This document shows positions 20,365 to 29,084 of a stretch of 64,000 nucleotides of DNA, one piece after another. The position numbers were made by a program, and so were the translations under genes. This DNA is from Pengzhenrongella sicca (GTDB lineage: Bacteria; Actinomycetota; Actinomycetes; Actinomycetales; Cellulomonadaceae): assembly GCF_017569225.1 (NCBI RefSeq), contig NZ_CP071868.1:3286001-3350000 (forward strand). Reading direction: 5' to 3'. The notes under the pieces are model-generated. The model saw nothing but the letters and a program-made list of their open reading frames with translations. It was not told the origin of the DNA and ran no database searches. The stretch's first letter is position 1. Each line of letters begins with the position of its first letter.

Positions 20365-21987
20365 TCAGCGGCGCGTGACGCCCGCCCGGAGCAGCCCGTA
20401 CACGATGGAGTCGACGATCGCCTCGAACGACGCCTCGATCACGTTGGGGCCGACGCCGACCGTGCGCCAGGTGGCATCGGCGCCCGAGTCCATGGTCTCC
20501 ACGAGCACCCGCGTCGTCGCGTCGGTGCCGTGCATCGTGTCCATGATGCGCACCTTGAAGTCGATCAGCTCGAACCGCTCGATCTCGGGGTACGTCGCCA
20601 CCAGCGCCTGCCGCAGCGCATGGTCGAGCGCGTTGACCGGGCCGTTGCCCTCGCCGGTCGCGACCGTCCGGGTGCCGCCGGCCGTGAGCTTGACGGTCGC
20701 CTCGGCGCTCGCGCGCCCGAGGACCGCCGCGTTGGTCTCGACGATGACCCGCCAGCTCTCGACGTCGAAGTAGGTGACGCGGTCGCCGTCGACCTCCTCG
20801 CGCAGCAGCAGCTCGAACGACGCGTCGGCGGCGTCGTAGGTGTAGCCCTGCGCCTCTGCCGTCTTGATCCGCGCGGTCACGCGGCCGAGCAGCTGGTCCT
20901 GGCCCGCGAGCTCGAGGCCGAACTCGCGCCCCTTGAGCTCGATGGACGCGCGCCCGGCCATCTCGGAGATCAGCATGCGCATGTCGTTGCCGACGCGCAC
21001 CGGGTCGATGTGCTGGTAGAGGTCGGGGTCGACCCGGATCGCGCTCGCGTGCAGGCCCGCCTTGTGCGCGAACGCGCTCGCGCCGATGTAGGGCTGGCGC
21101 GCGAACGGGCTGATGTTGGTGATCTCGCTGATCGCGTGCGCGATCCGGGTGGCCTCGCGCAGCCCGCCCGGGCCCGCGAGCAGGGTCCGGCCCTGCTTGA
21201 TCTCGAGGTTCGCGACGACGGCGATGAGATCGGCGTTGCCCGTGCGCTCGCCGTACCCGTTCACGGTGCCCTGCACGTGCTCGGCGCCCGCGCCGACGGC
21301 CGCGAGGGAGTTCGCGACCGCGCAGCCCGAGTCGTTGTGCGCGTGCATCCCGATGACGGGGCCGTGCCCGACGGCGGCCCGGACGTCGCCGACGATCTGC
21401 GCGACGCCGTCGGGGAGCATCCCGCCGTTCGTGTCGCAGAGCGTGACGACCTCGGCCCCCGCGCCGAACGCGACGCGGACCGCCTCGAGCGCGTACGCCG
21501 GGTCGTAGCGGTACCCGTCGAAGAAGTGCTCGGCGTCGAGCACGACCCTGCGCCCCTCGCCGACGAGCAGCGCGACGGTGTCGGTGATCATCGCGAGGTT
21601 CTCGGCCGCCGTCGTGCGCAGCGCGCGCTCGACGTGCCGGATGTCGCTCTTGGCCACGAGCGTGACGACGGGGGCCTGGGCGTCGAGCAGAGCGCGCACC
21701 TGCGGGTCGTCCCAGGCGTGCGTGCCGGCCTTGCGCGTGGCACCGAAGGCCGCGAGCTCGGCGTGCACGAGGTGCAGCTCCTTGGCGGCGCGCGCGAAGA
21801 ACTCCGTGTCCTTCGGGATCGCGCCCGGCCAACCGCCCTCGATGAAGCCGACCCCGAGCTCGTCGAGCAGCGGGGCGATGGCGAGCTTGTCGGCGACCGA
21901 GAGGTTCATGCCCTCCTGCTGCGCGCCATCGCGCAGCGTGGTGTCGTAGACGTGGAACGCCGCGAGCGGCGGGTGATCGCTGGTCAC
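20365..21987 (-). CDS. cimA: Citramalate synthase
   Basis: 540 aa. The HMGL/DRE-TIM domain starts VYDTTLRDGAQQEGMNLSVA with the catalytic Arg-Asp pair, and GMHAHNDSGCAVANSLAAVG carries the metal-binding H-x-H. A C-terminal LeuA-type allosteric dimer domain spans about 375-530. The FIEGGWPG and DAEHFFDGYRYDP segments distinguish CimA from LeuA. It condenses pyruvate and acetyl-CoA to citramalate, the threonine-independent route to 2-oxobutyrate and isoleucine; LeuCD and LeuB, also in this window, complete that route. An attenuator-like leader precedes it. GTG at 21987 is the start. Confidence 0.92.
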   Translation of the reverse strand: MTSDHPPLAAFHVYDTTLRDGAQQEGMNLSVADKLAIAPLLDELGVGFIEGGWPGAIPKDTEFFARAAKELHLVHAELAAFGATRKAGTHAWDDPQVRALLDAQAPVVTLVAKSDIRHVERALRTTAAENLAMITDTVALLVGEGRRVVLDAEHFFDGYRYDPAYALEAVRVAFGAGAEVVTLCDTNGGMLPDGVAQIVGDVRAAVGHGPVIGMHAHNDSGCAVANSLAAVGAGAEHVQGTVNGYGERTGNADLIAVVANLEIKQGRTLLAGPGGLREATRIAHAISEITNISPFARQPYIGASAFAHKAGLHASAIRVDPDLYQHIDPVRVGNDMRMLISEMAGRASIELKGREFGLELAGQDQLLGRVTARIKTAEAQGYTYDAADASFELLLREEVDGDRVTYFDVESWRVIVETNAAVLGRASAEATVKLTAGGTRTVATGEGNGPVNALDHALRQALVATYPEIERFELIDFKVRIMDTMHGTDATTRVLVETMDSGADATWRTVGVGPNVIEASFEAIVDSIVYGLLRAGVTRR

Positions 21988-22054
21988 GTTGGGCTCTCTG
22001 GATGGGGTGACGCTCTACCGGGTGGCGCGCTATCTGCTGACGATCTAGCTGCCG

Positions 22055-22108
22055 GCGGGGGGTGGTGCCGGTCAGGCGATCGACTGGTCGGCGGGCGGGG
22101 GGTGGTGC
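22055..22108. repeat. 15-bp G-rich direct repeat in the cimA leader
   Basis: GCGGGGGGTGGTGCC occurs at 22055-22069 and 22094-22108 (39-bp offset), between the attenuator hairpin and the cimA start. On the transcript these are C-rich. Purpose unknown; possibly factor loading or protein binding, or simple duplication. Confidence 0.6.
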
Positions 22109-22115
22109 CCGACAA

Positions 22116-22145
22116 CAAAAAGACCCCCCGAGGGTACGGGAGGTC
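22116..22145 (-). terminator. Attenuator-type terminator upstream of cimA
   Basis: On the minus strand AGACC-T-CCCG pairs with CGGG-G-GGTCT (9 bp with one mismatch, 6-nt loop), followed directly by TTTTTG. It lies between the leader peptide and cimA, about 130 bp before the cimA start, as expected for an amino acid attenuator. Confidence 0.75.
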
Positions 22146-22174
22146 TGCGCGTTCGGCGGGTGGGGCCGAACGCG
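22146..22174 (-). promoter_or_regulatory. Stable leader hairpin adjoining the leader-peptide stop codon
   Basis: Perfect 11-bp arms GCGCGTTCGGC and GCCGAACGCGC around a 7-nt loop. The 5' arm on the transcript begins within the leader stop codon, so a ribosome stalled on the Leu-Ile-Ile-Val codons would interfere with it. It directly abuts the terminator hairpin and may act as the pause structure. Confidence 0.65.
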
Positions 22175-22203
22175 CTACACGATAATAAGCTGGGACTGGT
22201 GCA
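22174..22203 (-). CDS. cimA leader peptide MHQSQLIIV
   Basis: A 9-codon frame GTG CAC CAG TCC CAG CTT ATT ATC GTG followed by TAG. The last four sense codons are Leu-Ile-Ile-Val, the end products of the pathway, which is the hallmark of a branched-chain amino acid attenuator. It is followed by an 11-bp hairpin and a T-tailed terminator. CATAGT ends 6 nt before the GTG, and TTCTCA lies 17 bp further up, so transcription probably starts at the GTG (leaderless). Confidence 0.72.
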
Positions 22204-22209
22204 CGGCCT

Positions 22210-22238
22210 CACTATGACACCGTGACCGACCAGTGAGA
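22210..22238 (-). promoter_or_regulatory. Candidate promoter of the cimA leader
   Basis: TTCTCA (22233-22238) and CATAGT (22210-22215) on the minus strand, 17 bp apart. The predicted start is 6-7 nt downstream, at the GTG of the leader peptide. The ilvE terminator ends directly upstream, which supports an independent cimA transcript. Confidence 0.55.
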
Positions 22239-22263
22239 AGGGGTGTCCACCCACCGGACACCC
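22239..22263 (-). terminator. ilvE terminator hairpin
   Basis: Perfect 9-bp stem GGGGTGTCC/GGACACCCC with a 7-nt loop, 7 bp after the ilvE stop codon. On the minus strand it is followed by TTCTC only, so it is a GC-rich hairpin without a full T-tract. Confidence 0.7.
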
Positions 22264-22270
22264 CGCCCCG

Positions 22271-28938: not shown

Positions 28939-28977
28939 AAAAAAACCCCTCGGCCCGCGTACGGGCTGGGCGAGGGG
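28939..28977 (-). terminator. Attenuator terminator upstream of ilvB
   Basis: On the minus strand CCCCTCG, an internal bulge and CCCG pair with CGGG and CGAGGGG, then seven consecutive T residues and GTG. It lies 33 bp beyond the leader-peptide stop and 40 bp before ilvB. CGGGCTG within the last leader codons is perfectly complementary to CAGCCCG inside the terminator's 5' arm, offering an alternative pairing. Confidence 0.85.
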
Positions 28978-29009
28978 GAAGCGCGCTGGCGGGGCCTAGT
29001 GGAATGGCC

Positions 29010-29084
29010 TCAGCCCGCGCGCCCGATAACTACAAGCCCGGCCACGACGACGAGGCCGGACGCTGAGAGAAGGATCGCCTGCAT
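29010..29084 (-). CDS. ilvB leader peptide rich in Ile, Leu and Val
   Basis: A 24-codon frame: MQAILLSASG, then LVVVAGLVVI, then GRAG and TGA. Thirteen of 24 residues are Ile, Leu or Val, including ILL, LVVV and LVVI runs. With the T-tailed hairpin immediately downstream this is a textbook BCAA attenuation leader for the ilvBNC operon: when charged BCAA tRNAs are scarce the ribosome would stall and prevent the terminator. TAAGGT ends 7 nt before the ATG, so the leader is probably translated from a leaderless 5' end. Confidence 0.85.
   Translation of the reverse strand: MQAILLSASGLVVVAGLVVIGRAG

Follow-up and report, generated by a model that had tools for sequence, protein, structure and literature searches.

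The window, a 64,000-nt stretch of the Pengzhenrongella sicca genome, contains a branched-chain cluster (ilvB, ilvN, ilvC, leuB and ilvE) around cimA. On the minus strand the ilvE stop codon (22273-22271) is followed by a leader cassette and then by the cimA start at 21987. The original prediction had described an attenuator-like layout before cimA, and the leader, the 11-bp hairpin and the T-tailed terminator are all present on the minus strand in front of that gene, whose identity was confirmed by a family match well above its cut-off. The features of the locus are as follows.

20365..21987, minus strand: cimA, (R)-citramalate synthase, the gene predicted to be regulated (TIGR00977, 598.8 bits; cut-off 450)
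22113..22120, minus strand: T-tract TTTTGTTG (sequence reading, pattern scan, conservation)
22121..22146, minus strand: terminator hairpin, 10 bp, -18.3 kcal/mol, directly adjoining stem 1 (pattern scan, covariation)
22147..22175, minus strand: stem 1, 11 bp, GCGCGTTCGGC/GCCGAACGCGC, its first base being the G of the TAG stop (sequence reading, covariation)
22175..22204, minus strand: leader ORF VHQSQLIIV*, with its start codon at the predicted +1 (sequence reading, comparison)
22181..22189, minus strand: CTT ATT ATC (L-I-I), both Ile codons being the putative conserved control codons (comparison of leaders)
22211..22216, minus strand: -10-like CATAGT with an upstream TG, i.e. an extended -10 (sequence reading, conservation)
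22234..22239, minus strand: -35-like TTCTCA, 17-nt spacer to the -10, below the scan threshold (sequence reading)
22240..22264, minus strand: 9-bp hairpin 3′ of the ilvE stop codon (sequence reading)

The hairpin behind ilvE is the likely end of the ilvE transcript, and the -35 of the cimA leader lies in its 3′ flank. Between the terminator and cimA, at about 22051-22111 of the minus strand, two successive short hairpins with the stems CGGGC..GCCCG and CCGGC..GCCGG and a CACCACCCCC-like loop were also seen, and comparable hairpin pairs occur in loci of the same family, e.g. L087 and L091. The genome also contains an ilvA match that exceeds its cut-off (TIGR01127, 405.5 bits), and a TIGR02079 match that stays below its own; with the first of these, isoleucine synthesis probably has two entries, CimA being one of them and not the sole route.

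The promoter-like pair that had been noted upstream of the leader is present, and its -10 block is conserved in relatives (T5 and G6 in at least 90% of their alignment), but the pair is weak and a sigma-70 promoter scan of the window gave no site over threshold. Thus, the promoter call rests on the TGTGGCATGATG-like block conserved in relatives; TTCTC-like blocks are also visible in several of them, e.g. L085, L086, L087 and L089. The GTG start codon (22204-22202) begins 6 nt past the -10, and because of this distance the G of GTG (22204) is predicted to be +1. By a permissive search with no chance control, the start codon follows a -10-like hexamer at a distance of 6-7 nt in 52 of the 60 related leaders described below, a spacing that fits the predicted leaderless loading of ribosomes.

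The leader reads GTG CAC CAG TCC CAG CTT ATT ATC GTG TAG, i.e. nine codons and a stop. When both strands of the window were searched for a short ORF with an ILV-rich end followed by a hairpin and a T-tract, it was the sole match; owing to its limit on loop size, this search overlooked the ilvB leader considered later. In the terminator pattern scan two overlapping sites were found at the cimA leader, compared with a mean of 0.2 in shuffled sequences, and an intrinsic terminator accordingly lies between the leader ORF and the gene, as in attenuators in the broad sense.

To see how far this arrangement extends, 77 cimA loci were scanned by script, comprising 30 from the window's family (its own locus and the 29 others that scored highest in the 199 matching genomes of that family) and 47 named loci (L003-L049 of the best 80 matches). 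The cassette lies upstream of cimA in 60 of them, 30 of 30 in the family set and 30 of 47 in the named set, and these 60 are not all independent because L003 and L096 seem to come from a single genome and the elements of L094 and L095 are near-identical. The 17 loci without a script match belong to uncultured actinobacterial MAGs (L024-L032, L039, L043), a Brachybacterium MAG (L034) and L010, L012, L023, L035 and L048; in L023 a variant cassette is present by eye. Another 33 loci (L050-L082) were inspected by eye. Two Acidimicrobiia MAGs among them (L059, L078) have a leader, stem and terminator before cimA with changed letters in the stem base and terminator, and the cassette may therefore predate the class. 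In two Nitriliruptorales loci (L048, L051) inspection by eye showed that cimA is preceded by a leader rich in Ile and by a hairpin, with no T-tract; control there may use Rho or translation.

The paired structure was examined in two alignments, A1 with 58 rows (L003 and L095 left out) and A2 with 52 rows (six further close rows left out), and RNAalifold recovered two adjacent hairpins on the aligned loci. In A2, 97.5% of cells are paired against 88.6% in shuffles, and changes on both sides occur in 99 cells, compared with 32.9 after shuffling, while sliding the partners by 1-3 columns lowers the pairing to 36-58%. Changes on both sides were found in five of the 10 modelled pairs of stem 1 and in five of the nine pairs of the terminator. 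The base of stem 1, GCGCG/CGCGC, is identical in all 52 rows, so the covariation support for this stem comes from its upper five pairs only. Moreover, stem 1 is followed by the terminator with a spacer of 0 nt in 51 of the 60 loci and of 1 nt in the other nine.

A covariance model, R1, was built from A2. In the 4.4-Mb genome, where 150 of 18511 candidates were scored and E values of at most 10 accepted, it reported two places, the cimA leader with 90.6 bits and, as the only other match, the ilvB leader of the window with 27.9 bits. In the class, under stricter filters that lose weak matches, R1 matched 267 of 394 genomes, from 109 of 138 genera (E up to 0.1), and TIGR00977 (E up to 1e-110) matched 310 of 394 genomes in what we take to be the identical sample. 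Both were found in 249 genomes, a co-presence that does not by itself prove adjacency, cimA only in 61, R1 only in 18 and neither in 66. The 61 cimA genomes without an R1 match include 31 from family f33, which has small genomes, and 14 from family f25; outside these two families R1 matched 221 of 237 cimA genomes. In a phylum sample 90 of 396 genomes had a match. Also matched upstream of cimA (e.g. L145, L149) was genus g60, which we infer to be Streptomyces; SCO5529 is presumably the S. coelicolor locus tag of cimA. At ten g60 loci (L145, L147-L149, L152, L153, L155, L160-L162) the element takes 121-129 nt against 79 model positions, and the extra length lies inside stem 1, where further hairpins are possible, with the stem base and the butted terminator retained. 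Judged by these comparisons of sequence, the cassette before cimA is conserved well beyond the genus and not by chance; leader, stem and terminator are kept jointly, which supports the predicted attenuator.

Conservation of the leader is concentrated in its codons. With codons counted back from the one overlapping stem 1, Ile stands at codon -2 in 58 of 60 leaders and at codon -3 in 53, in agreement with the earlier remark that a double Ile fits CimA feeding isoleucine. The Leu-Ile-Ile-Val ending emphasized in the original prediction is present in the window, but Leu and Val are not conserved as control residues, and the control residue predicted for the cimA leaders is Ile. All 60 leaders are open in one frame as far as stem 1; a start codon lies within the inspected 48 nt in 59 of them, that of L004 being further upstream. 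The stop codon overlaps stem 1 in 45 leaders, and in 15, e.g. Nonomuraea and Amycolatopsis loci, the ORF enters stem 1 by 12-18 nt. The rare codon ATT accounts for 51 of the 127 Ile codons in the last five codons of these leaders and for 11 of 1119 in the cimA genes downstream of them (Fisher p 1.5e-44, which is only a guide since the sequences are related); across 13 CDSs of the window it accounts for 0 of 238. The putative leader ORF is thus rich in codons for isoleucine, the end product of the pathway. If it works as predicted, the citramalate route is under isoleucine-specific control in a large part of the class, with probable Streptomyces among them, and the leader offers a handle for engineering the production of isoleucine and citramalate.

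R1 also matches in front of other genes. Adjacency was examined at 99 R1 loci, 31 from the class and genome searches, 28 from the phylum sample and 40 picked by hand (L171-L210), so that they do not form a random sample. The downstream gene is cimA at 55, ilvB at 26, leuA at four (L194 being assigned by its likeness to L205 and not by its own family search), leuB at two and leuS at two, and ten loci have no branched-chain assignment. Of the 50 loci that score 50 bits or more, that of the window included, 49 lie before cimA and one (L146) before leuA. Control codons were counted over five codons per leader, in the frame with the most I/L/V codons, a choice that favours these three alike in all genes. 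The cimA leaders (55 loci) gave I123 V16 L35; the ilvB leaders gave I13 V51 L34 (23 loci, with L167, L186 and L203 excluded as they gave no leader frame); the leuA leaders (four loci) gave L13 and the leuS leaders (two loci) L5, both with no I or V; and the leuB leaders (two loci) gave I5 V3 with no L. The difference in Ile share between cimA and other leaders was reached in none of 10000 label shuffles, which ignore relatedness. By these counts the control codons mostly follow the downstream gene, and cimA belongs to the pathway of the amino acid that its leader codons specify. The relative in the window has two parts, given below, and its rare codons CTT GTA GTT stand immediately before the stem (element at 28946-29084, minus strand).

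28946..28977, minus strand: terminator hairpin of the ilvB leader (sequence, duplex test)
29010..29084, minus strand: ilvB leader ORF MQAILLSASGLVVVAGLVVIGRAG* (sequence, R1 match)

The same observations bear on two explanations that involve no translating ribosome. A terminator placed after the end of ilvE could merely insulate, being constitutive and preceded by an incidental short ORF; such a terminator would leave the enrichment of rare codons, the fixed register between codons and stem and the matching of codons to genes without a reason, and we consider it very improbable. Alternatively, stem 1 could be read by a protein or a tRNA, by T-box-like or protein-dependent termination. The invariance of its base in 52 of 52 A2 rows would suit such a reader, but the leader stays in frame with its start codon and keeps rare Ile codons, the codons mostly track the downstream gene, and the stem base differs, by eye, in the Acidimicrobiia loci L059 and L078, so that we give this explanation hardly any weight. 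At the gathering score, the only Rfam matches in the window are two tRNAs, with no T-box or other RNA family at the leader, and a T-box or protein site was dropped on this ground together with the leader frame and codon evidence. We regard it as very probable, from the conserved layout and codons, that the cimA leader is a ribosome-mediated transcription attenuator tied to the charging of tRNA-Ile, in a variant with butted hairpins.

In trp-type attenuators, RNA upstream of the terminator pairs with its 5′ arm. This antiterminator was searched for by the duplex energy between the upstream RNA and the terminator 5′ arm, compared with shuffles, and five E. coli attenuators served as controls (z of -6.43 for thr, -1.53 for leu, -1.66 for his, -1.45 for trp and -1.48 for ilvGMEDA; duplex energies from -12.0 to -23.4 kcal/mol). 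The test is coarse, as four of the five controls reach only -1.45 to -1.66, though the contrast between controls and cimA leaders is clear at the group level, and pseudoknots lie outside it. None of the 60 cimA leaders reaches -1.45, the value of the weakest control; their mean z is +1.08, the minimum -1.00 and the mean energy -5.8 kcal/mol, i.e. the pairing is weaker than in shuffles. The loop and 3′ arm of stem 1 gave a mean z of +0.28 with the terminator 5′ arm (0 of 60 below -2) and of +0.13 with its 3′ arm (one of 60 below -2). In ensemble folding with ribosome masks in four states, the mean probability that the 5′ arm pairs upstream was 0.04-0.30, and an earlier duplex test with the leader and the stem 1 5′ arm likewise found no antiterminator in the cimA leaders. 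Hence, the element that marks a classical trp/his-type attenuator was not found in the cimA leaders by the duplex and folding tests. Attenuation by the logic of ilvB and leuA, as originally proposed, is supported for the leader and terminator, but not for the classical antiterminator, which was searched for and not found.

The ilvB leader of the window does show antiterminator-like pairing (z -1.90, -24.2 kcal/mol), while the cimA leader does not, so one genome seems to hold both designs. For 26 ilvB loci including that of the window, the earlier duplex test gave a mean z of +0.71 with none reaching -2; many of the re-coded relatives may thus share the absence, or the test may be too blunt for GC-rich leaders. 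The cimA leader could instead be a classical attenuator whose antiterminator was overlooked, e.g. a pseudoknot or a structure invisible to the duplex test. Three published actinobacterial ilvB attenuators are modelled with an antiterminator in the accessible parts of their reports (PMC11857589, PMC10272879, PMC13236596), the window's own ilvB leader pairs in this way, and the test parts four of five E. coli controls only weakly from shuffles. The positive mean z of the cimA leaders, none of which comes up to the weakest control, the negative results with the stem 1 loop and 3′ arm, and the low upstream pairing of the 5′ arm in all four masked states speak against it, and an overlooked antiterminator appears unlikely to us.

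Returning to attenuation by the ribosome, we suppose that the RNA begins at the leader start codon and that a ribosome loads onto its bare 5′ end. With ample isoleucine, the ribosome would pass the Ile codons and reach the stop codon, the terminator would form and the RNA would end before cimA; when charged tRNA-Ile is short, the ribosome would halt on the Ile codons and RNA polymerase would read into cimA. A ribosome covers about 15 nt downstream of the start of its P-site codon. Thus, with the first Ile codon in the A site, its edge would fall at the base of stem 1, which could stay closed, and a closed stem 1 would put the first base of the terminator 0-1 nt off, at the ribosome, where folding of the terminator would be hindered. 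A ribosome at the stop codon would instead cover the 10-11-nt 5′ arm, so that stem 1 would open and the terminator would be free. Since the overlap between stem 1 and the terminator is zero in cimA, we propose steric hindrance by the ribosome and stem 1, with stem 1 itself acting as the switch; we hold this step only tentatively.

Its main rival is a pausing role for stem 1, in which the hairpin holds the polymerase inside the terminator until the ribosome comes and the timing of release sets termination. An 11-bp stem directly before the 5′ arm would indeed sit behind a polymerase that is making that arm, and in the available text on C. glutamicum the hairpin H1 is given a pausing role (PMC11857589). 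Pausing would account for synchrony, but not by itself for read-through on starvation, and it would not require a spacer as tight as 0-1 nt; we consider this role rather doubtful, with a small but appreciable chance of being right. If the antiterminator is truly missing, a ribosome and an adjacent hairpin suffice for attenuation, which might account for the difficulty of identifying the switch in certain leaders of actinobacteria.

The E. coli trp, his, thr, leu and ilv attenuators resemble the cimA leader in placing a leader peptide before the operon, followed by a T-tailed terminator, and their leaders hold codons of the end product. They differ in the upstream pairing with the terminator 5′ arm, whereas the cimA leader shows none and has in addition a predicted leaderless start and a butted hairpin. 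In Actinobacteria, as far as the accessible parts of the papers go, ilvB, leuA, leuS and trp have known or proposed attenuators or leader peptides (PMC1262725, PMC8079986, PMC10272879, PMC13236596), and published ilvB attenuators include C. glutamicum ilvBNC (PMC11857589), the Corynebacterium ilvB-II motif (PMC10272879) and M. tuberculosis ilvB1 (PMC13236596). From what these texts describe, such ilvB attenuators share with cimA a short leader with branched-chain codons, an intrinsic terminator before the gene and control by leader translation, and C. glutamicum ilvBNC also shares a near-leaderless start (PMC11857589). Their models use Val/Leu/Ile codons and an antiterminator, in contrast to the Ile codons of cimA, where no antiterminator pairing was detected. 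The antiterminator H2 of C. glutamicum ilvBNC is described as sharing only a GCC trinucleotide with its terminator (PMC11857589); stem 1 of cimA is proposed to close under starvation and to open when supply is sufficient, a behaviour also assumed for H2.

In S. lividans the leader peptides ilvL, leuL1, leuL2, trpL1, trpL2, alaL, thrL and metL are given in Table 4 of PMC8079986, and by the available text they are, like that of cimA, short, in several cases leaderless, and located before amino-acid genes including leuS and ilvB. cimA is absent from these eight, and the main text of that paper contains neither 'cimA' nor 'citramalate'. The LEU element of leuA and the T-boxes of ileS likewise represent RNA control of branched-chain genes in Actinobacteria; as presented in the portion at hand of Seliverstov 2005 (PMC1262725), LEU elements pair Leu codons with the leuA ribosome-binding site and use no terminator, and for ileS the T-boxes are suggested to act by masking the ribosome-binding site, both unlike cimA, which that portion does not mention. 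Work cited there found no effect of changing candidate codons in the S. coelicolor ilvB leader, a result that counts against attenuation. The accessible text of PMC8632094 also lacks both 'citramalate' and 'cimA'. Judged by titles and the beginnings of abstracts, none of the papers listed from the open-licence PubMed Central literature deals with a cimA attenuator. What appears to be new here is the target gene, cimA, with its wide conservation, and a design that fails the classical antiterminator test.

Taken over all downstream genes, the leaders might represent one modular attenuator scaffold without an antiterminator across Actinomycetota, re-coded for each gene, in which a butted hairpin held by the ribosome blocks the terminator; this is an idea we put forward with reserve. 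Its parts would be a leaderless leader with two to four control codons in a fixed register and, one codon further on, a hairpin with the terminator butted directly on it. Re-coding would supply Ile for cimA, Val/Leu/Ile for ilvB, Leu for leuA and leuS, and Ile/Val for leuB, and switching would need no competing RNA helix, as the stalled ribosome would keep the butted hairpin closed. One RNA scaffold re-coded for different amino acids would be a natural experiment, in which codon swaps can test sensing.

The ten R1 loci with no branched-chain assignment are L154, L183, L185, L191, L192, L195, L196, L198, L200 and L204; eight of them score 22-32 bits, and most look like chance or terminator-only matches. 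At L154 (1501-1580, minus strand, 46.9 bits) the leader codons are VLLIT and the longest downstream ORF, about 200 nt off, is a prephenate dehydratase, which does not fit codon-gene matching. At L198 (1161-1242, minus strand, 34.4 bits) a leader end RGFVAIA* lies directly before isocitrate lyase, and this match may be due to chance or to an unrelated leader. The leader at L200 is rich in Leu and, by eye, looks like those of leuS. In the ilvB leaders GTA makes up 22 of 51 Val codons, against one of 542 in the CDSs of the window, a comparison in which the leaders come mostly from other genomes and have no matched control. The two leuB leaders, L165 (1501-1578, AVIII) and L190 (54-132, QVVII), contain Ile and Val and no Leu, as might be expected if LeuB acts in the citramalate route to isoleucine in the genomes concerned.
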